Shown here one piece after another: positions 1 through 11,159 of a DNA stretch of 64,000 nucleotides (position 1 is its first letter; each line of letters starts with the position of its first letter). Under the pieces are notes generated by a model. That model made no database searches and had not been told where the DNA came from. It was given only the letters and a program-made list of their open reading frames with translations. This DNA comes from an uncultured Alphaproteobacteria bacterium. GTDB lineage: Bacteria > Pseudomonadota > Alphaproteobacteria > HIMB59. The stretch lies in the NCBI GenBank assembly GCA_902611415.1, contig CACLZM010000006.1:1-64000 (forward strand). Reading direction: 5' to 3'. The translations under genes were made by a program, and so were the position numbers.

Positions 1-359
1 GTGTGTCCCATAAGCCCTTGTCCAAAAAGTCTTAAAAAATAAATTACAAAAAAAAGAAGAATTACATTAAACACAATACTTGCAAAAAAACATGTTATCG
101 AAAGACCTAATACAATTGCTAAAGTATATTTTTTAAGAGAGACCGTATCTATAAGTTTGCCAGCCCATATAATAGTTAACGCACTTAAAATTGTAGCTAT
201 TGAATACAGACTGCCAAATTGAGTATTACTTAAGTTAAATGTTTCTCTAAAATCTTCACTAAAAAGAGAGATAAAAAATGTTTGTCCAAATCCTGATGCG
301 AATGCTATTAGAAAGCCAAATATTAATAAATTTGAATTTTTATTTATAAAATTAATCAA
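1..359 (-). CDS. MFS transporter, N-terminal part, runs off the window edge
   Basis: Own translation of the reverse complement from a TTG at 359: LINFINKNSNLLIFGFLIAFASGFGQTFFISLFSEDFRETFNLSNTQFGSLYSIATILSALTIIWAGKLID..., an MFS-like hydrophobic pattern; partial. Confidence 0.7.
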   Translation of the reverse strand, partial: MINFINKNSNLLIFGFLIAFASGFGQTFFISLFSEDFRETFNLSNTQFGSLYSIATILSALTIIWAGKLIDTVSLKKYTLAIVLGLSITCFFASIVFNVILLFFVIYFLRLFGQGLMGH

Positions 360-421
360 AACAAGAGGGATATTATGATTTAATGACTATATATCAATTA
401 TAATAAAGAAAGGGACTACTG

Positions 422-829
422 GTGAGCACAATTAAAAGAACCGATGATGATAATCATCCAATTATAAAGGAAGTCTATGAAGATATTAAACAATCAAGAA
501 ACACAACTTATATAGGTAATTTTTGGAAATATTTAGCATTCGACCCTCAATTACTAAAAAATGTTTGGAGTGATGTTAAAGATTTAATGGTTAAACAAAC
601 CACAATTCCAAATAAAACTAAAGAGATGATTTATATGGCAGTCTCTATAACAAATAATTGCTCGTATTGCACACACTCACATACAGCTGCAGCAAAAAAA
701 CTTGGGATGACTGAAGAAGAACATTCAGAATTTTTAAATATTGTAGCTCTTGCAGCAAAAACAAATCAACTGGTCAATAGTATACAAGTGCCAGTAGATG
801 AAATATTTGATGAAGACATAGAAAAATAA
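422..829 (+). CDS. Carboxymuconolactone decarboxylase / AhpD-like family protein
   Basis: ORF with NNCSYCTHSHTAAAKKLGMT, typical AhpD/CMD CxxC motif. Confidence 0.75.
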   Translation: MSTIKRTDDDNHPIIKEVYEDIKQSRNTTYIGNFWKYLAFDPQLLKNVWSDVKDLMVKQTTIPNKTKEMIYMAVSITNNCSYCTHSHTAAAKKLGMTEEEHSEFLNIVALAAKTNQLVNSIQVPVDEIFDEDIEK

Positions 830-833
830 TCCA

Positions 834-935
834 ATGGAATTTTTAATATGGTTTTGGAATGCAGGTGAACTTCTGATGATTATAGGTATTGGGATTATTA
901 TAATTGGATTATTATTTTATAGAAAAAAAAAATAA
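834..935 (+). CDS. Small (33 aa) single-TM membrane protein candidate
   Basis: Own translation MEFLIWFWNAGELLMIIGIGIIIIGLLFYRKKK*, 4 nt after the previous stop; not in the ORF track because of size. Confidence 0.4.
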   Translation: MEFLIWFWNAGELLMIIGIGIIIIGLLFYRKKK

Positions 936-998
936 ATTTTTAAGTTATTAATTAAATTATTTTATTTATGATCTCCAGAATTATTATAATATTAAATA

Positions 999-1238
999 AT
1001 GTATTACGATGATGATAATAATGACGATAATACGCTGTTAGGCAGACTTACTGAGCTAAATAGAGCCCTAAGTCAAATGATGAGAAACACCAGCGAAAGA
1101 AATATTGTTGAAAAGTTACATACTTACCAACTTGCTATAAAAAAAACTCTAAAAATTATGACTAAAAAACAGCTTAGTACTATTTCCGAGTCCTCCAATG
1201 AATACGAAGATAGATTAGAACGAGGTGACTTTGACTAA
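999..1238 (+). CDS. Hypothetical protein
   Basis: 79 aa ORF, no family recognised. Confidence 0.5.
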   Translation: MYYDDDNNDDNTLLGRLTELNRALSQMMRNTSERNIVEKLHTYQLAIKKTLKIMTKKQLSTISESSNEYEDRLERGDFD

Positions 1239-1242
1239 ATTT

Positions 1243-2361
1243 TTAGTCTAAATTTTTAAAACCGTAACCTGTTTTTTTCACTCTTGTTTTAAAATAATTC
1301 TTATTAAATTTATTAATTGTTGGTTTTGTATTAATTTGTTTAGCAATTTTAATGCCAGCTTTTTTAAGAGAAGAAACCTTTGTAAAATTATTTGTGATAA
1401 TATTGACTTTATTTACTTTTAATAACTTAAGTATCTTAGCAGCAATATTAAAATCTCTTTCATCATCTAAAAAACCTATGTTGTGATCAGCATCAATAGT
1501 ATCTAAGCCTTTTGACTGAAGAGAATAGGCCCTCATTTTATTGGCTAGTCCTATACCTCTCCCTTCTTGATCTAAATAAAGGATAATACCTCCTTTATTT
1601 TTAACCATATAGTTTAAAGAATTATTTAATTGTTCTCCGCAATCGCATTTTCTAGAGTGAAATATATCCCCAGTAAAACAAGCTGAGTGAATTCTAAGGT
1701 TTGTTGGTTGTTTTAAATTTTTTGGTTTAATTATGATCGCAATATGTCTTCTAGCACCAATATATGACTTAAAAATATTAAAAGTAGTAGATGCAACATT
1801 TGGTAAGGGCACATTTGCACTTGAAACTAATCTGATGCTATTAGTTATAAATTTATTCTGATTTTTTAACTCTTTATGGTTAAATCTTAATAGACCAAGT
1901 TGTAATATTAGATTATCAATATTTTTATAGTATTTAGAATTAATTTTTTTAAATACAAGTGAAGGTATTACCTTCGCATTTTTAGCTATATCTAAACAGA
2001 CATTATGGAAGTCTTTACTTTTGATATAAGGCTCATCTTTAAATAATATTTTATTTTGATCAGATAAAGGGTTAATGAATAAACTTAATAAAGATTTGTT
2101 TAATATTTTTTCATTTATTTTTATATAAATATTTGTTGATACTTTATTCTCAAATATTGATTTTGCTTTTTGTTTTGTGATTAAAAGATATTTGTCTTTT
2201 TGTAGATATTGATTGAATTGATTTAGAATTTTATTGTCCGAATGTTCAATATTAAAGAACATCCAATAATTTTTATTTTCTTTGATAACTATTGGTCTTC
2301 CGGTTCTAAGCTCATTGATAGCTCTATCAATAAATGTGCCAAAATTTGATTTTAAACTCAT
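1243..2361 (-). CDS. ribA: GTP cyclohydrolase II homolog with an N-terminal extension
   Basis: CFTGDIFHSRKCDCGEQL (zinc Cys set) and LDQEGRGIGLANKMRAY...DDERDF; N-terminal ~170 aa is not canonical GCHII. Confidence 0.85.
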   Translation of the reverse strand: MSLKSNFGTFIDRAINELRTGRPIVIKENKNYWMFFNIEHSDNKILNQFNQYLQKDKYLLITKQKAKSIFENKVSTNIYIKINEKILNKSLLSLFINPLSDQNKILFKDEPYIKSKDFHNVCLDIAKNAKVIPSLVFKKINSKYYKNIDNLILQLGLLRFNHKELKNQNKFITNSIRLVSSANVPLPNVASTTFNIFKSYIGARRHIAIIIKPKNLKQPTNLRIHSACFTGDIFHSRKCDCGEQLNNSLNYMVKNKGGIILYLDQEGRGIGLANKMRAYSLQSKGLDTIDADHNIGFLDDERDFNIAAKILKLLKVNKVNIITNNFTKVSSLKKAGIKIAKQINTKPTINKFNKNYFKTRVKKTGYGFKNLD

Positions 2362-2402
2362 AGACTATATATATACTCAATAGCACTTGATACAGATGAA
2401 AA

Positions 2403-3233
2403 ATGATAACAAAGCATAATATTTCTTCACTATTTGAATTTGTAAAAAAACAAAAAAAATCAAATATCTTAAGAATTGATTTAATTAACAAATCGTTTGT
2501 ACTTAGTCAACATTCTAAAACCAATCATATTTTAATTGATAAAAATGGCGTTAATTTTAATTGTAAGATTGAAAAAAAAATAAATGAAATAGCACAAATT
2601 TTATTACCAATATTGATGATAAAAAAAAAATTCTATATCGGTCAAATTGGGCAAAGCTTAGACGGTAAAATTGCACTTTTAAACGGCAATTCTCATTACA
2701 TTAATGATAAAAATAGTATTTCATACCTTCATAGTCTTCGTTCAGTGTGTGATGCAGTTATAGTTGGTGTAAATACAATAAAAAAAGATAATCCCTTGCT
2801 CACTACAAGAGCAATTAAGGGCTCAAATCCTCAGAGGATAATTATAGATCCGTCTCTAAAATTAACAAATAACTATCAAATATTTAAAGATGGTTTTTCA
2901 AATATCATATTTACACACTCTAATATTAAAAAGAATTTAAAAAACACACAAATTTATAAATTACCTGAAAGAAACTTCACAAATCTTATATACAAACATA
3001 TAAATAATTTAGGTTTTAAGTTCGTATTAGTAGAAGGTGGTTCTAAAACTATATCTAAATTTCTTGAGAATAAATTATTAGATATTATGCAATTTATAAT
3101 AGCACCTACAATAATTGGTTCTGGTATTAATTCTATAAATATAAAACCTATAACAAATTTAAAAAAAGTTATTAGAACAAAAAATAAAATTTATAAATTT
3201 GGCGAAGAAATAATAGTAAGTTTAGAGTTTTAA
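2403..3233 (+). CDS. RibD C-terminal (reductase) domain family protein, no deaminase domain seen
   Basis: GQIGQSLDGKIAL...LHSLRSVCDAVIVGVNTIKKDNPLLTTR...NPQRIIIDPSLKL...VLVEGGSKTISKFLE. Confidence 0.85.
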   Translation: MITKHNISSLFEFVKKQKKSNILRIDLINKSFVLSQHSKTNHILIDKNGVNFNCKIEKKINEIAQILLPILMIKKKFYIGQIGQSLDGKIALLNGNSHYINDKNSISYLHSLRSVCDAVIVGVNTIKKDNPLLTTRAIKGSNPQRIIIDPSLKLTNNYQIFKDGFSNIIFTHSNIKKNLKNTQIYKLPERNFTNLIYKHINNLGFKFVLVEGGSKTISKFLENKLLDIMQFIIAPTIIGSGINSINIKPITNLKKVIRTKNKIYKFGEEIIVSLEF

Positions 3234-4010
3234 AGCTAAAAAATCTTTATTTCTTAGAAATAATTTTGATTTATTTTTTTTAATATTTTCCCTTCTAAAA
3301 TCTAACCATCTATCTAATGATATCTTATTTTTTTCAAGTACATTTTCACAAAAATCTAAAAACATATTTTGAAATTTTTTATTCTTTGATACATCCCAAC
3401 TCGAGTCAAAAACAAATGTTTTATGTGACTTAGAAAACAATTTATTAATTATTTGACTACAGTTTTTACCAACTGCTTTTTGCCCAATACCCTTATCTGA
3501 CTCCTGATCTTTATTAAATAGATTTAAAACGTACTGATCATCTTTATGTTTTGGGTGAAATTTAAAAAATCCATCATAATTGATCGAAAAATATACAGCT
3601 TTTGTATTTAGATTTTGTTTTTTAAATCCTAAATACCAATTTTTTGGCATTATATCTAAATACGCAGATCCTGTAATAATATCGTATTTTTCGAATTTAA
3701 AACTTTTTATATTTTTGATTAAATCAAATTTTTTATAATTTATATTTATAATCTTATTCTTATTATTTGTTTTTTTCTTAAATTCTTTAATTGACTCAAA
3801 TGATATGTCTATCATATCCCATGATTGTCTTTTTTTAAGTTTGGGGTACAAATATCTATAGTTGGAACCTGTTCCACAACCTAAATCAGCAATAGACAAT
3901 GTTTTGTAGTCTTGAAAATATTTATTAATTTTTTCTATAATTTTTTTATTTCTTGAAACTTTATCAATTTTCTCTCGAAGAAATAGCCAATCATTATTAA
4001 ATTTATGCAT
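3222..4010 (-). CDS. Class I SAM-dependent methyltransferase
   Basis: IADLGCGTGSNYRYL motif I, MIDIS motif II. Confidence 0.8.
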   Translation of the reverse strand: MHKFNNDWLFLREKIDKVSRNKKIIEKINKYFQDYKTLSIADLGCGTGSNYRYLYPKLKKRQSWDMIDISFESIKEFKKKTNNKNKIININYKKFDLIKNIKSFKFEKYDIITGSAYLDIMPKNWYLGFKKQNLNTKAVYFSINYDGFFKFHPKHKDDQYVLNLFNKDQESDKGIGQKAVGKNCSQIINKLFSKSHKTFVFDSSWDVSKNKKFQNMFLDFCENVLEKNKISLDRWLDFRRENIKKNKSKLFLRNKDFLALKL

Positions 4011-5046
4011 CTTTTATTATCTTGATAAAAAGATCCCCAGATTGTGTTGGTGTTAAAAATTTTCTCTTATTTTGTATTAATTTTTTTGATAAATCTGAAT
4101 TAAATGCATTTTTAGTAATTAATTTTGATAAACTTTTTTCTTTAAAATTATTTAAGTAGATAATTCCATCTTTTTTTAGAGTACTCATAATTGTTTTAGT
4201 TTTATATGTAATAATCATTTTTTTGAGTTGAAGGGCATTAGCAAGTGACATACCAAAACCTTCATATTTACTTACTGAGACATAGAAGTCACACTTAGAA
4301 TATAGTTTTGATAGTAAATTAATCGATACATTACTATGAAACTTAACTTTTTTACTTAATCTATAATTACTTATAATTTTTAGTAATCTATTATAGTATT
4401 TACTATCTCTAGTTATATCTCCTACAATATTTAATTTTATTTTATCCATGTATCTTAATTCGTTTAAAAGATAATGATAATTTTTTCTCTCAATAATACT
4501 TCCCACAGATAGTAAATTTATATTTTTATCCCTTTTTAATTTATATTTTTTTAATTTTTCTATTCCAGGTTCTACAACTTGAATTTTTCGCTTATTAATT
4601 TTAAATTTTTCAAAAATTAGTTGTTTTGTATCATTTGAAGTGACAATTATTTTTTTCGTTCTCTTATATAATTTTTTAGCGTTCTTAAGAAAAAATTGAC
4701 TTTGATTACCATTAAATTCTAGATAAAGAGGGTGGTGTATAAGAGCTATTAATACAAATCTATCTAAATAGTTTATTATACCATCAATACACTCAAAAAC
4801 TAATCCATCAAAAATTAGTACTGCATTATCTGGTAATTTTTCTAAAGTTTTTTTTAGATTTTTTAAGTCATTTTCTTTAGGAAAGGGAAAGCTGTTAGCA
4901 AGTTTGATAGCATTTAAATTGAATTTAATTTTTTTTGCTCTTTTTAATATATTTTTTTCATAAATGTAACCACCTGTTTTTGTATTAATATCACCCGGAT
5001 AAATAAAATAATAAGATTTATTGTGTATTACTGATCTCTTGTTCAT
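4003..5046 (-). CDS. Glycosyltransferase, GT4-like
   Basis: LLSVGSIIERKNYHYLLNEL...VSVSKYEGFGMSLANALQLKKMIIT, typical GT-B C-terminal pattern. Confidence 0.8.
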   Translation of the reverse strand: MNKRSVIHNKSYYFIYPGDINTKTGGYIYEKNILKRAKKIKFNLNAIKLANSFPFPKENDLKNLKKTLEKLPDNAVLIFDGLVFECIDGIINYLDRFVLIALIHHPLYLEFNGNQSQFFLKNAKKLYKRTKKIIVTSNDTKQLIFEKFKINKRKIQVVEPGIEKLKKYKLKRDKNINLLSVGSIIERKNYHYLLNELRYMDKIKLNIVGDITRDSKYYNRLLKIISNYRLSKKVKFHSNVSINLLSKLYSKCDFYVSVSKYEGFGMSLANALQLKKMIITYKTKTIMSTLKKDGIIYLNNFKEKSLSKLITKNAFNSDLSKKLIQNKRKFLTPTQSGDLFIKIIKDA

Positions 5047-5425
5047 AAGAAGCCCAAGCTACATTTGACTCAGTTAAAATAATTTTAATTTTATGCAACT
5101 TGTTAAAATCTTCTATGTAATCTTTTTGTAATTTATCGCATATTCTATCAAAAATATCTTTAGCAAGAAATTCCGTAGAGGTGATAATATTTTTAAATTC
5201 TTCAACTTCGTCTAAATTTTTATAACTATAAAATTTTAATACGTCAGAGAGAATTTCTGTTACAACCCCGAGATCCATAATAATGTTATATTTGTTAATC
5301 TCTTTTGCATAAAACTCAGCATCAACTATGTAGGTCGCTCCATGCATATTCTGTGCTGGTCCAAAAACCTCACCCGGGAGAGAATGTGCAATTAAAATAT
5401 TATTTCGAACAGTAATTGAATACAT
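5018..5425 (-). CDS. 6-pyruvoyltetrahydropterin synthase / QueD-fold protein with degenerate active site
   Basis: LIAHSLPGEVFGPAQNMHGATYIVDAEF...IIMDLGVV, recognisable PTPS fold; canonical CxxxHGH appears as AQNMHGA. Confidence 0.75.
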   Translation of the reverse strand: MYSITVRNNILIAHSLPGEVFGPAQNMHGATYIVDAEFYAKEINKYNIIMDLGVVTEILSDVLKFYSYKNLDEVEEFKNIITSTEFLAKDIFDRICDKLQKDYIEDFNKLHKIKIILTESNVAWASYEQEISNTQ

Positions 5426-5426
5426 T

Positions 5427-6389
5427 TTAATACTTTATAGCATGCATTATGCTTTCTGGATTATTTAATATTGAAATATAATCTTTCTCTAAGTCCTGAA
5501 AGTCACTTTCAGTATTTATTAATTTAAGAAGCTGGTTATTAGATAAAGCATTAATTGCTAAATTCAATCTCTTTTTATAATCATATTTTTTTGATAAATA
5601 CTTTGGAATATTTGAAACTTGAGAACTAATAATTTTTAATCTCTTTGAGTGAAAATTACCTCCTAAATTTATATGACCTTTTCTATTTCCATACCAACTA
5701 GCCTCAATAAATTTTCCCTCTAAATTTAATTTTTTTAGTGATTGGTTTAATACATCATAATTAGATGTTGTATTAATTATAACATCTAAGTTTTTAATTT
5801 TTTTAAAATTAATAAATTTTAGTCCTAAAATATTTGCAAATTTCTTCTTTTTAATATTTATGTCAGTAATAAAGACATTTTTAAATTTTAGTAATTTATA
5901 ATAGTAGGCAGTTAAAATACCAACAGAGCCCATCCCTATTATCAATATTTTGTTATTTAATTTTGCTTGAGTATCCCAAAAGATATTAATAGCTGTTTCC
6001 ATATTTGCTGTTAGTAAATATTTTCGAATATCACCATTACCTTTTAAAATATTCACATTATTTATATCAATCTTAAATAGTGACTGATGGGGGTAAAGGC
6101 AGAATGTATTTTTATTTAAATATTTTTTTGGGCCTTCAACTATTTTACCAACATTAATGTAACCGTATTTAATTGGAAAAGAAAAAGATCCCTCTTGAAA
6201 AGGAGATTTCATTATATCGAACTGATCTTTGCTAATATTACCTGATGCTACTAATCTCTCAGTGCCCTTACTGATTCCTGAATAAAGAGTTTTTACAAGA
6301 ACAGTTTTAGAATTTTTTTTATAGCTTAGTATTTTTTTCTTAATAATTGGTTTATTTTCATTCTTAATCCATAGAGAATAAGTTTCCAT
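5427..6389 (-). CDS. Zinc-type alcohol dehydrogenase (MDR) family protein
   Basis: SGISKGTERLVASG, KYGYINVGKIVEG, ILIIGMGSVGILTAYYYK; start assigned to ATG at 6389 rather than GTG at 6416. Confidence 0.75.
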   Translation of the reverse strand: METYSLWIKNENKPIIKKKILSYKKNSKTVLVKTLYSGISKGTERLVASGNISKDQFDIMKSPFQEGSFSFPIKYGYINVGKIVEGPKKYLNKNTFCLYPHQSLFKIDINNVNILKGNGDIRKYLLTANMETAINIFWDTQAKLNNKILIIGMGSVGILTAYYYKLLKFKNVFITDINIKKKKFANILGLKFINFKKIKNLDVIINTTSNYDVLNQSLKKLNLEGKFIEASWYGNRKGHINLGGNFHSKRLKIISSQVSNIPKYLSKKYDYKKRLNLAINALSNNQLLKLINTESDFQDLEKDYISILNNPESIMHAIKY

Positions 6390-6418
6390 AATAATTATAT
6401 AAATGTTAAATATCACTT

Positions 6419-7177
6419 ATGCTATCAAAGTTTTGGTCTGATTTAACATCAGCAGACATTAGTAAATTAGGTAAAAATAAAATACTTATTCTGCCATTTT
6501 CATCTGTAGAACAACATGGAGAACACCTTCCATCAGGTACTGATAAATTAATATTAGATGGAATTTTAAATACTTTTATTAAGAAATATCCCAAACTTAA
6601 TAAATATTTAATTCTACCAAATATCTCTATAGGTTCAGCGAGTGAGCATAATAGCTTTGAGGGCACTCTATCTTCGAACTCTACAAATTATATTGATTAT
6701 ATTATCAGCATAGTTGGTGAGTTATGTATTCGTAGATATAAAAAATTTATCTTTTTAAATAGTCATGGCGGACAAATTAGTCACTTAGATATAGCTGCTA
6801 AAGAAATTAAAAGTAGATATAAAGCTGTCGATATTGTTAAGGCACATTATTTTCTATTTAAAGGTTTTGAAAAAATTATTCCAAAAAAGGAATTACTTTA
6901 TGGATATCATGGAGGTGAATTTGAAACATCAATAATGCTCCAACTTTATCCAGAATTAATAAAATTAAATAAAATTAAAAGAAACAAACTCTCATCTGAC
7001 TTTAAATCTAAAAAAATAATTTCTTATGAAAGAACAATTAAAAGAACTTGGAATACAAAAGATTTGTCCAAGACAGGTATAATTGGAAATCCTACAAAAT
7101 CCTCTGCAGATAAAGGAAAAAGAATTCTAGATCTTACATCAAGAACCTTAAAAAAAATAATTGATGAAATGAAGTAG
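6419..7177 (+). CDS. Creatininase-family amidohydrolase
   Basis: LPFSSVEQHGEHLPSGTDKLI, NSHGGQ, GYHGGEFETSIML metal-binding motifs. Confidence 0.85.
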   Translation: MLSKFWSDLTSADISKLGKNKILILPFSSVEQHGEHLPSGTDKLILDGILNTFIKKYPKLNKYLILPNISIGSASEHNSFEGTLSSNSTNYIDYIISIVGELCIRRYKKFIFLNSHGGQISHLDIAAKEIKSRYKAVDIVKAHYFLFKGFEKIIPKKELLYGYHGGEFETSIMLQLYPELIKLNKIKRNKLSSDFKSKKIISYERTIKRTWNTKDLSKTGIIGNPTKSSADKGKRILDLTSRTLKKIIDEMK

Positions 7178-7251
7178 TGGAGGCCCACCCCGGAATCGAA
7201 CCGAGCTACAAGGATTTGCAGTCCTCTGCATAACCAATCTGCCAGCGGGCC
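7178..7251 (-). tRNA. tRNA-Cys (GCA)
   Basis: Reverse complement GGCCCGC...GGACTGCAAATCC...GGTTCGATTCC...GTGGGCCTCCA; acceptor, anticodon and T arms pair; encoded CCA. Confidence 0.93.
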
Positions 7252-7272
7252 ATAAAACTTAGCATAACACTT

Positions 7273-7971
7273 TTATTGATATTTGTAATCGGGATTAGTG
7301 CCAGATGTGTATTCTATACCATCAATTACTACTTTTGGCCAAGTACCAATTCCAATAAGTTTAGGTCTTGACTCCAGATAATCTAAAATACCTTGAATCT
7401 TTTCAAAATCGCTCATAAATTTTTTTAACTTTGGAAAGTTATCTAAAATTTTATCATCTAATAGCAATGCTAGTGAAACATGATGATAAACATTAAAGTC
7501 ACAATAAAATGCTCTTTCTCCTAAAAAAAAATTACCTTCATATTTACTTAGTAACTTCTCAAAATTTGTAAAAGCTTTGGGTAAAATTTCATTTAAAAGA
7601 TTTTTTTTATTCTTTAAGTGCATTTCACCAACCCAAACATTTATTGTTGGATTTAAAGGAAAAAATAAATCATGGGCAGACTCAAATATAGAGTCAGCAT
7701 ATGCAACCATTTCCTCATTATTGGGGATATTGTTTGTAAGTTTAGCTATATATCTTGAGATAGTATTGCTTTGCCATATTTCAATTTTTTCATCTATAAC
7801 AAGCAAAGGTAATTTATGAAAAATCACCTCTTTTTTGACATCACCCCATGGTTTTTTAAAATAATCCCATGCCATTTCATATGAATATTCTATACCCGCA
7901 GTATTTAGCATCATCCTTGGAGCCTCACATAAAGCTCTAAGATTGAAATAGATTAACTGTAGTTTAGACAT
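7273..7971 (-). CDS. Glutathione S-transferase family protein
   Basis: MSKLQLIYFNLRALCEAPRMMLNTAGIEYSYE...KLPLLVIDEKIEIWQSNTISRYIAK. Confidence 0.85.
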   Translation of the reverse strand: MSKLQLIYFNLRALCEAPRMMLNTAGIEYSYEMAWDYFKKPWGDVKKEVIFHKLPLLVIDEKIEIWQSNTISRYIAKLTNNIPNNEEMVAYADSIFESAHDLFFPLNPTINVWVGEMHLKNKKNLLNEILPKAFTNFEKLLSKYEGNFFLGERAFYCDFNVYHHVSLALLLDDKILDNFPKLKKFMSDFEKIQGILDYLESRPKLIGIGTWPKVVIDGIEYTSGTNPDYKYQ

Positions 7972-8010
7972 AAAGTTTATATTAATATTTTTATATTATA
8001 AATATTTATC

Positions 8011-9396
8011 ATGAAAACTAAAAATTATTTATCTGAAGCACAAAATTTTCTGAAGAGAAATACACAAGTAAAATCATTTGATATTGTAATGCATGATTGT
8101 AATGGTGTAGGTCGTGGAAAAATAATTAGAAGAAATGAGTTATTAAATTTGTATAAATCAGGTAGGCAATTTCCTCTTTCATTACTTGGAATGGATATTA
8201 CTGGTGAGGATACACCTGAAACAGGATTGATTTTAGAGCAAGGTGATGGTGACATAAAAGCTTGGCCTATACCATCATCACTTAAGTTATTGCATAACAG
8301 CAAACCACCAAGAGGTGAGTTATTCATGAACATGTATGATATTGATGGAAAAAAATTGTTAACAGATCCAAGAAATGTTTTGGAAAATAAAATTCAAGAT
8401 TTTAAAAAAAAAGGAATTAATTTTTATGCAGCATTTGAGCTAGAATTTTTTCTTGTTTCAAATGAATTGGATGAGTATGGAAAACTAAAACCAGCAAAAT
8501 CTATACTTGGAAAAAGAGCATCAATTAAAAAGACAGATGTCTATTCAGTAGATCATCTCCATGGTATGTTACCTTTAATTGATGATATTTATGAAGCTAC
8601 AAAACTTGCAAAAATAGATGCTGAAACTATTATTTCAGAGTACGCGCCCGGTCAATACGAATTAACATTAAAACATCAAAAATCGTTATTAAAAGCTGCT
8701 GATGATATTTTAAGGCTAAAAAGAATTATAAGAGCACAAGCAAGAAAACATGGAGTCACTGCATGTTTTATGGCAAAACCTATGGAAAATATTTCTGGTT
8801 CTGGAATGCATTTTCATATTTCACTTTATGATCAAAAAGAAAAAAATATTTTTGCCGAAAAAAATAACGAAAAAGTTAATAAAAATCTTAATTATGCACT
8901 TGGGGGTCTTTCAAAAACCATGGGTGAAAGTATGTTGATATTCGCACCAAATGCTAATAGTTGGAGGAGGTTTGTTTCAGGGTCTTATGCACCAACAAAG
9001 CCTAATTGGGGAGTAGATAACAGATCAGTTGCTTTTCGAATACCAAGTAGTAATAAAAATAATAGAAGGATAGAACATAGAGTCTCAGGCGTTGATGCAA
9101 ACCCATATTTAGTAGCCTTAACTATAATTTCAGCAATTGAATTAGGAATTCAAAATAAAATTTCTCCAGATAAACAAACAACCGGAAATGCTTATTTAAA
9201 GAAAAATAATCAAAAATACAAAATTCCTTCTGACTGGAATTCATCAATTATGCTATCTAAGAAATCCTCTTTTTTAAAACAAACTTTAGGCCCAGAATTA
9301 CATAAGGCGTTTATAGCCATTAAGGAAATGGAATATCATAAATTTGTTAGTACTATATCAGAATTAGATATTGATTTATATTTAGATGCTATTTAA
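8011..9396 (+). CDS. Glutamine synthetase family protein (gamma-glutamyl-amide/polyamine ligase-like)
   Basis: EYAPGQYELTLKH, FMAKPMENISGSGMHFHISL, NSWRRFVSGSYAP. Confidence 0.85.
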   Translation: MKTKNYLSEAQNFLKRNTQVKSFDIVMHDCNGVGRGKIIRRNELLNLYKSGRQFPLSLLGMDITGEDTPETGLILEQGDGDIKAWPIPSSLKLLHNSKPPRGELFMNMYDIDGKKLLTDPRNVLENKIQDFKKKGINFYAAFELEFFLVSNELDEYGKLKPAKSILGKRASIKKTDVYSVDHLHGMLPLIDDIYEATKLAKIDAETIISEYAPGQYELTLKHQKSLLKAADDILRLKRIIRAQARKHGVTACFMAKPMENISGSGMHFHISLYDQKEKNIFAEKNNEKVNKNLNYALGGLSKTMGESMLIFAPNANSWRRFVSGSYAPTKPNWGVDNRSVAFRIPSSNKNNRRIEHRVSGVDANPYLVALTIISAIELGIQNKISPDKQTTGNAYLKKNNQKYKIPSDWNSSIMLSKKSSFLKQTLGPELHKAFIAIKEMEYHKFVSTISELDIDLYLDAI

Positions 9397-10174
9397 CTTT
9401 ATCTAGAAAATCATTAAGCTCTTTTTCTTCCATTTTAATAAGATGTTTATCTTCAGGGTATGCACCACTATTAAAATCATCAACAAACATTTTAAAACCT
9501 TTTACTCTTAATTCTTGTAACTCTCTCTCTTTAATTTCTAAATCTACATATTTTTTTGCATGTCGAGGATAATGACCAACGTTTGTACCAAGTATATCAT
9601 TACAAAATAAATATTGTGTATCACACACATCACCACAGCCCATACCCATAGTTATCATTTTAGTATTCTTTGTTATAAATTCTGCAAGCTCAACTGGTAC
9701 TACCTCTACTTCTACGCAAGCTGCTCCAGCATTTTCGAGATCTTTTATTTTTTGATATACTTTAAAAGCTTCGTTTGATGTTTTTCCTACAGCTCTATAA
9801 TTAGTCCATGTTGCAATATTTGGGACTAATCCAACGTGTGCAGTTACAGGTATTCCCTCTTTTGCCATAGATTCAATAAAGTTAATAGAGTGTGAACAAT
9901 AAATAGCATCTGCTCCCATTTCCATTATTTCAAAACCTTTTTTTATTGCCTCTTGAGGAGAACTCACCAACCCATGTTTAAGACCAACAGATAAAAATGC
10001 TGTTGGAGCAACTTTTCTTACATCCTTGAAATGATGATCAGGCTCACAGGAAATTATTTCAATTCCTGCTTTGTAGGCAGCTTCTGCCTCTTTTGCTGTA
10101 TCTATATGAGTTTGAGGCCACTTCTTTTTACCTTTTTGACTCCATAAATCAAAAACGGTAGTTCTTTTAGCCAT
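9389..10174 (-). CDS. PanB-like (ketopantoate hydroxymethyltransferase superfamily) protein
   Basis: GIPVTAHVGLVP, AGAACVEVEVVPVELAEFITK, MGMGCGDVCDTQYLFCNDILG; N-terminal GDS region replaced by CEPDHHF. Confidence 0.7.
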   Translation of the reverse strand: MAKRTTVFDLWSQKGKKKWPQTHIDTAKEAEAAYKAGIEIISCEPDHHFKDVRKVAPTAFLSVGLKHGLVSSPQEAIKKGFEIMEMGADAIYCSHSINFIESMAKEGIPVTAHVGLVPNIATWTNYRAVGKTSNEAFKVYQKIKDLENAGAACVEVEVVPVELAEFITKNTKMITMGMGCGDVCDTQYLFCNDILGTNVGHYPRHAKKYVDLEIKERELQELRVKGFKMFVDDFNSGAYPEDKHLIKMEEKELNDFLDKVK

Positions 10175-11159
10175 TGTTATTAGATGGAACGGCTACTTGT
10201 AATTCATATGAAGGGTTTTTTGCTTGTTTTAAAATAGTAGGGATGATTTCAGAGTATGCTCCCCATAAACCTTTTTTTGCAGGAGGCATCTGATCTTTAA
10301 CTAATTGGTGCAGTTTAGGTAAATTATGTGATGGCACAGTAGGGAACATATGGTGTTCAATATGATATTCCATCTGCCAATATAAAAAACTGAAGATCGG
10401 GTTTAAATGCATTGTTCTAGTACTATATCTATGATCTTTGATATTATCTTTAAGCCCAGTGTGTTGAGTTAATCCAAAAAGTCTTTTGAGTGTTATCCCA
10501 TAAAAGTTTGGAAGTAAAAAATATAAAACCGGCAACCAAGACTGAAAAGCAATTGACATTAAAATTAATAAGATCCAAATACCAACATGTAATCTTGAAG
10601 AGTTTATGCATTTTTGATGTTCTCTTTCAGGAATTACCTGTTTCATTACTTCTGTTTTTTTGCCTAAAGCATGAAGAATAGTCTCGTATTGAGTTGTTTT
10701 TTTAAAATTAATTATGTCAAAGAAAGGTATGAATAAACTGAAAAAGTAAAAAACATCAGTTGGTCTTCTAATTGCTATTTCAAAATCGAGAGGATCATCA
10801 AAGTAAGTATAACCATGATGACGAAAATGTGACCATCTCCATCTTACTGGTTCAAATCCATTCATATAACTTCCAATTTGATAAAAAAAGTTATTCCAAT
10901 AGTTCGTTTTAAAAGCTGTTTTATGTCCTGTTTCGTGCCAAATAGGATCTGCGCAATTCCATATATTTCCATAAATTAAAAAAAATAATAAAGACCACCA
11001 AGTCCCCCATGTCATATAAGCTAAAACACCGAATACAATTAAAGACCCAAAGAAAATAAACATGTGTTTAAAACCTTGATAATCGGACTTCTTAAGAAGC
11101 TTTACAAATTCTTCTTTATCAACGTCACAATGATGCCATTTGTCTAAGTCAACTTTCAT
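10167..11159 (-). CDS. Fatty acid desaturase family protein
   Basis: His boxes HETGH, HFRHHGY, EYHIEHHMFP and multiple TM segments. Confidence 0.9.
   Translation of the reverse strand: MKVDLDKWHHCDVDKEEFVKLLKKSDYQGFKHMFIFFGSLIVFGVLAYMTWGTWWSLLFFLIYGNIWNCADPIWHETGHKTAFKTNYWNNFFYQIGSYMNGFEPVRWRWSHFRHHGYTYFDDPLDFEIAIRRPTDVFYFFSLFIPFFDIINFKKTTQYETILHALGKKTEVMKQVIPEREHQKCINSSRLHVGIWILLILMSIAFQSWLPVLYFLLPNFYGITLKRLFGLTQHTGLKDNIKDHRYSTRTMHLNPIFSFLYWQMEYHIEHHMFPTVPSHNLPKLHQLVKDQMPPAKKGLWGAYSEIIPTILKQAKNPSYELQVAVPSNNNG

Follow-up and report, generated by a model that had tools for sequence, protein, structure and literature searches.

Gene content and organization of the cluster

The DNA analysed here, referred to as the window, is a stretch of 64,000 nucleotides from an uncultured alphaproteobacterium of the HIMB59 lineage (contig CACLZM010000006.1 of assembly GCA_902611415.1). 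At positions 1243-7177 (position numbers are window coordinates throughout) it carries a cluster of seven contiguous genes, for which an original prediction made from the sequence had proposed one undescribed route to a GTP-derived glycoside. All seven open reading frames (ORFs) were found at exactly these coordinates, and the probability that they form one pathway, leading from GTP to a pyrimidine or pterin that is glycosylated and methylated, is put at roughly 60%. The cluster comprises the following genes:

1243-2361, minus strand: RibA, consisting of a degenerate RibB-like N-terminal domain (about residues 1-170; hhalign to RibB) and an intact GTP cyclohydrolase II domain (PF00925, E 9e-48)
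2403-3233, plus strand: RibD_C reductase without a deaminase domain (PF01872, E 6.6e-29; nearest PDB structures are RibD and 2,5-diamino-6-ribosylaminopyrimidinone reductases)
3222-4010, minus strand: class I S-adenosylmethionine-dependent methyltransferase, MT (PF13649 Methyltransf_25, E 1.7e-7; AlphaFold pLDDT 94, with fold matches)
4003-5046, minus strand: GT4-type glycosyltransferase (PF00534 Glycos_transf_1, E 5.9e-23)
5018-5425, minus strand: PTPS-IV protein with the FGPAQ signature, homologue of SCO6650 (PF01242, E 6.7e-21; PDB 3d7j, E 2.3e-34)
5427-6416, minus strand: MDR-type dehydrogenase lacking the zinc ligands, BchC-like, ADH (NCBIfam BchC, E 1.4e-13; AlphaFold pLDDT 94)
6419-7177, plus strand: creatininase-family amidohydrolase, CRE, a candidate formamidase (PF02633, E 8.8e-52)

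Pfam matches lay above the curated cut-offs for six of the seven proteins, the exception being ADH, for which both the ADH_zinc_N match (E 0.002) and the BchC match were under their cut-offs. The predicted overlapping of several genes was borne out by overlaps of 29 bp between PTPS and GT4, 8 bp between GT4 and MT and 12 bp between the convergent RibD and MT genes; ADH and PTPS are separated by 1 bp. ADH and CRE are divergent, with annotated starts only 2 bp apart, or about 30 bp if ADH begins at an ATG at 6389 instead of the annotated GTG at 6416. The strand layout had been described as ADH-PTPS-GT-MT on one strand with RibD and the creatininase on the other, which holds, except that RibA also lies on the minus strand, pointing away from RibD across a gap of 41 bp. 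Like the remaining window, the cluster region is AT-rich. Compared with close relatives and one more distant one, all seven genes showed nonsynonymous rates (dN) far below synonymous rates (dS; for RibA, dN 0.002-0.19 and dS 0.1-1.6), indicating that they are maintained by purifying selection.

The RibD_C reductase contains the motifs SLDGK, DAVIVGxxT and EGGS. The model of ADH matched sugar, polyol and alcohol dehydrogenase structures at TM scores of 0.67-0.80, which supports an MDR fold, although the Cys and His ligands of the catalytic zinc are replaced throughout the family, where the motifs SGVSRGTE and KYGY are found. The MT model is that of an ordinary class I enzyme, and its nearest matches leave the acceptor unfixed.

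Distribution and conservation of the cluster

Near-identical clusters could be observed in genomes of uncultured marine Alphaproteobacteria and Pelagibacterales, which marks the source as SAR11-like. A search of 100 relatives, many with incomplete assemblies, found the PTPS protein in 64; it was also detected at no fewer than 589 genome loci and on 23 plasmids; the viral contigs searched contained no relative of it. Two relatives that seemed to have lost PTPS but kept RibA had RibA at contig ends, so that an assembly break and not decay explains them. The protein occurred in 27 of 399 evenly drawn Pseudomonadota (about 7%), in 12 of 397 genomes drawn for the Actinomycetota centre (two of the 12 being weak) and in 2 of 297 drawn for the Bacteroidota centre; these totals include the centre genomes themselves.

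Gene neighbourhoods were counted at 64 non-SAR11 loci with a length of 18 kb or more, a set skewed to the best-scoring matches and to Streptomyces. ADH was a neighbour at 59, GT4 at 56, MT at 55, RibA at 41, RibD at 33 and CRE at 33 of these loci, and genes for a CDP-alcohol phosphatidyltransferase and an LPG-synthase-like membrane protein stood at 51 and 48, respectively. Twenty evenly drawn Pseudomonadota loci gave ADH at 20, GT4 at 19, MT and RibD at 16 each, RibA at nine and CRE at four, and the two additional gene types at seven each. The stable core of the cluster is ADH-PTPS-GT4-MT; RibA, RibD and CRE feed this core and can presumably be missing where host enzymes serve instead. Linkage of the core with RibA, RibD and creatininase genes recurs in Alpha- and Gammaproteobacteria, Actinomycetota and Bacteroidota, and the whole arrangement was found again on plasmids. 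Because the same association recurs across several phyla, the gene orders indicate a real biosynthetic unit and more than a chance grouping. The proposal that the seven families form one conserved unit is thus well supported by the neighbour counts and by the low dN relative to dS.

The PTPS-IV protein

The closest solved structure for the window PTPS protein is SCO6650 of Streptomyces coelicolor (PDB 3d7j), and the comparison with SCO6650 and SCO6655 made in the original prediction proved right. SCO6650 reportedly binds no zinc, has no PTPS activity and possesses a pterin-like pocket. The window protein reads EVFGPAQ, and in an alignment of 112 cluster members F21, G22, A24 and Q25 were invariant and P23 was found in 111. 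The canonical PTPS/QueD motif (CxxxHGH or CxxxxxHGH) is absent: the catalytic Cys is missing, no Cys lying between residues 15 and 31 in the 112 members, and the third zinc His is replaced by Ala30 in all of them. Glu119 is kept in every member bar one gapped row.

FGPAQ is the signature of PTPS-IV, an orphan subfamily of COG0720 for which a 2017 paper (PMC5445326) described PF00925 and PF01872 in the gene neighbourhood. Both families stand beside PTPS-IV in the window as well; PF00925 is labelled FolE2 in that report, but the family is GTP cyclohydrolase II. The neighbourhood therefore cannot be called undescribed, whereas the term still fits the pathway and its product. A literature search on the cluster neighbourhood and genes found no paper on the pathway. 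The published accounts of PTPS-IV that were consulted make no mention of GT4, MT, MDR, creatininase or CDP-alcohol transferase genes and give no product. The S. coelicolor system thus resembles that of the window in FGPAQ, in the lost PTPS catalytic residues and in the PF00925/PF01872 neighbourhood, but the SCO6655-type RibA has Met where the window RibA has Tyr.

RibA and the probable opening of GTP

At ten checked positions of GTP cyclohydrolase II the window RibA reads CCCERYDRTK, identical to the Escherichia coli enzyme and including the three zinc Cys and the equivalents of Tyr105, Asp126 and Arg128 (E. coli numbering). The N-terminal third of the protein corresponds to RibB in a degenerate form (hhalign probability 97%, E 2e-11), without the acidic RibB loop. 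The predicted absence of ribB, ribE and ribH genes and of a RibD deaminase domain was confirmed for window 1-11000 by ORFs and Pfam; it holds at the level of genes, yet about 170 residues of RibA derive from a RibB-like domain. The cluster RibA sequences split into proteobacterial, Bacteroidota and actinobacterial lineages (row L194 in this comparison is likewise a cluster copy).

On a Haloarcula plasmid, a gene for GTP cyclohydrolase III (GCH_III; PF05165, E 3.4e-81) was found beside genes for ADH, a PTPS-family protein, MT and a CDP-alcohol transferase, and near a second Haloarcula cluster there is a creatininase. GCH_III acts on GTP and yields the formamidopyrimidine (PMC9478397). It is non-homologous to RibA, yet holds its place in the cluster. 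As two unrelated GTP-opening enzymes occupy the same position, the pathway very probably begins with the opening of GTP, in agreement with the proposed role of RibA; the differences of the haloarchaeal PTPS protein given below call for some reserve. Haloarcula clusters also contain an oxidoreductase of the GFO/IDH/MocA type (L184:4919-6889 and L185:4643-6382; the L184 protein is a fusion with an aldo/keto reductase) that was not seen in the bacterial clusters examined.

The creatininase and its possible role in deformylation

The cluster creatininases retain the expected metal positions, with E31, H33, D42, H116, H164 and E169 in 59 of 59 members. All 33 clusters whose RibA has Met, His or Gln at position 105 carry a creatininase, and all are actinobacterial as far as the records were named. 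Tyr105 was found in 37 clusters, 20 with a creatininase (SAR11, Halomonadaceae) and 17 without. The association of a non-Tyr RibA with a creatininase forms a single phylogenetic block and is therefore suggestive but falls short of proof. A strict rule, by which the creatininase would occur only where RibA lacks Tyr105, was rejected, since SAR11 and Halomonadaceae have both.

SCO6655, the Met form of RibA, is said to stop at the formamidopyrimidine. The window RibA, which keeps Tyr105, is predicted to deformylate by itself, and the window creatininase is therefore not predicted to be essential for this step; it may be either auxiliary or acting elsewhere. The original assignment of the creatininase as a deformylase thus fits the Actinobacteria and has precedents in archaeal ArfB and in BrbF, a bacterial creatininase-family protein of Sinorhizobium meliloti that deformylates the formamidopyrimidine (PMC9478397), but it fits the window less well. 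BrbF has the same proposed substrate, although its likeness to the window creatininase is at the level of the family, and it serves riboflavin and adjoins marR and cobW homologues. The archaeal ArfA/ArfB/ArfC route to riboflavin and F420 shares GTP opening, a creatininase-family deformylase and a stand-alone RibD_C reductase with the cluster, and one Haloarcula cluster uses an ArfA-type cyclohydrolase. In contrast to the Arf route, the cluster has PTPS, MDR, GT4 and MT genes instead of a lumazine or FO synthase, and the bacterial clusters use GTP cyclohydrolase II.

In a tree of creatininases, those of SAR11, of Gammaproteobacteria with one alphaproteobacterium, of Actinobacteria and of Haloarcula fall apart, and at least three changes of cluster label are forced. 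A single orthologous group was rejected on these grounds, and the tree indicates that creatininases entered the cluster at least three times. That one enzyme type was taken up repeatedly suggests that it is truly needed.

In four rhizobial clusters, three of them on plasmids, an additional RibA was seen that is fused to a degenerate RibB. The S. meliloti BrbF study looked for a missing partner cyclohydrolase, which this protein could be, though the plasmid collection showed no cluster in S. meliloti itself.

Relation to riboflavin biosynthesis

Close relatives carry a separate glyA-nrdR-ribD-ribE-ribBX-ribH-nusB region. The cluster shares RibA and RibD_C chemistry with this operon, which is a different locus with full RibD, RibE, RibB and RibH. 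That the cluster is distinct from an ordinary rib operon, as predicted, was confirmed in this way, and such an operon as its sole role was rejected. In RibBX, however, the GTP cyclohydrolase II half is dead, lacking all three zinc Cys that the other RibA copies examined in the taxonomic order keep, while the RibB half looks intact (RibBX at L148:8907-9980). Since the operon has lost these ligands, the cluster RibA probably also supplies riboflavin in most carriers of this genus.

Five cluster-bearing relatives (92-94% complete) showed two PF00925 matches each, which we infer to be the cluster RibA and RibBX in those not inspected as well. One further relative has a second RibA besides the cluster RibA, and a complete genome without the cluster has a different RibA. 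The window's own assembly, about 81% complete, showed one PF00925 match, and RibH was not found in it. A complete riboflavin pathway elsewhere in the genome could accordingly be seen in relatives but not in the window's assembly. The original prediction had held that the proposal would fall if these were the sole riboflavin genes and the GT, MT and PTPS genes unlinked neighbours; relatives have their separate operon, even though the genus probably relies on the cluster RibA for riboflavin as well.

Proposed pathway and alternative explanations

The conservation of the genes, the states of the active sites, selection and the exchange of the cyclohydrolase were observed. For the reaction order, the intermediates, the product, its sugar, the site of methylation and the role of the PTPS-fold protein, we infer the following course. 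RibA would open GTP to 2,5-diamino-6-ribosylamino-4(3H)-pyrimidinone 5'-phosphate; where RibA lacks Tyr105 or GTP cyclohydrolase III is used, the formamidopyrimidine would accumulate and be deformylated by the creatininase-type hydrolase. The RibD_C reductase would then convert the ribosyl to a ribityl chain, the ring not being deaminated. PTPS-IV, without zinc site or catalytic Cys but still with the Glu that is expected to hold a pterin, may bind the diaminopyrimidine or pterin during a rearrangement or condensation, and the zinc-less MDR enzyme may perform a redox step. Finally, GT4 would glycosylate and MT methylate the product, most economically a methylated glycoside of a ribityl diaminopyrimidine or of a pterin derived from it. 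A bolder version of this proposal, which we regard as tentative and somewhat short of even odds, is a widespread and horizontally mobile pathway shared by ultra-streamlined SAR11, Streptomyces and haloarchaea and leading to a non-deaminated ribityl-pterin or ribityl-pyrimidine glycoside that serves as a cofactor or signalling lipid, with metal-free PTPS-fold chemistry and with GTP-opening and deformylating enzymes swapped several times.

Several points weigh against a single GTP-derived pathway. As PTPS-IV lacks the known catalytic residues, the chemistry assigned to it is a guess. RibA, RibD and CRE are not present in every cluster. Only Actinobacteria have the non-Tyr RibA, whose relation to the creatininase could therefore reflect one event, and creatininases also accompany Tyr-bearing RibA. 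The haloarchaeal PTPS protein, with an identity of only about 27%, retains the histidines of the metal site, and its cluster may represent a related but different pathway. Lone PTPS-IV genes, with no other cluster genes nearby, were observed at five Streptomyces loci; in annotated plasmid records, genes of the ECF sigma factor, BTAD regulator and cupin types are among those next to them.

Among the alternatives, a pterin or pyrimidine glycoside that is lipid-linked or exported, with the CDP-alcohol phosphatidyltransferase attaching its ribityl phosphate to a lipid and with a trimmed version in SAR11, is unlikely but deserves consideration. The CDP-alcohol transferase and the flippase-like protein accompany the cluster in many other taxa, as in the counts outside SAR11 given above, both being found also in Gammaproteobacteria and the transferase in Haloarcula, which suggests lipid attachment or export there; both genes went undetected in the window and at SAR11 loci, and in Pseudomonadota both are far from universal. 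It is a little less probable that the product is ribosyl and not ribityl, or deaminated, and that the substrate of the creatininase is not the formamidopyrimidine but, at a late stage, a cyclic amide or guanidine of the product. The window RibA should indeed not need a deformylase, and many Tyr-type clusters do without a creatininase, but all non-Tyr clusters carry one, a Haloarcula cluster has one nearby, and the precedents in the family are deformylases of this very intermediate (PMC9478397).

That RibA and RibD serve riboflavin only, with GT, MT, PTPS and ADH as unrelated neighbours, appears highly improbable. In cluster-bearing relatives (genus g1) no intact GTP cyclohydrolase II other than the cluster RibA was found, and the window's assembly shows no other RibA and no RibH; relatives nevertheless have their own rib operon, RibA and RibD stay together with PTPS, ADH and GT4 across unrelated phyla, also where the genome has additional RibA copies, and the entire arrangement recurs on plasmids. 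Synthesis of F420 or a variant of it is hardly credible in spite of the shared early intermediate and an unpublished assignment of PTPS-IV to F420 quoted in PMC5041015. The F420 ligase PF01996 was not found in 16 of 18 genomes searched, which were picked from the cluster-bearing sets and included the window's genome, and the two with a match were both Streptomyces, which make F420 anyway; GT4 and MT, moreover, are not F420 genes. Barring a non-homologous ligase, F420 was rejected as the general product. A gene for a PPOX-class F420-dependent oxidoreductase beside some Streptomyces clusters would favour F420; it was observed beside RibA at nine loci.

Genes flanking the cluster

An AhpD/carboxymuconolactone decarboxylase-like gene adjoins the cluster at 422-829. 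Positions 8011-11159 hold a glutamine-synthetase-like gene followed, on the opposite strand, by a pair of genes for a PanB-like protein and a fatty acid desaturase.

Significance

The co-occurrence of PTPS-IV with PF00925 and PF01872 has been on record since 2017. New are the haloarchaeal version with GCH_III, the pattern of Tyr105 and creatininase, the repeated recruitment of the creatininase, the presence of Tyr105 in the window RibA, the probable role of the cluster RibA in riboflavin synthesis and the recognition of F420 as an unlikely product. Thanks to the haloarchaeal enzyme swap and the Tyr105/creatininase pattern, the first steps can be tested directly on known substrates. The occurrence of the cluster in about 7% of evenly drawn Pseudomonadota and its retention in Streptomyces and in streamlined marine SAR11 suggest that its metabolite plays a real part in the cell, as a kind of cofactor or in protection.

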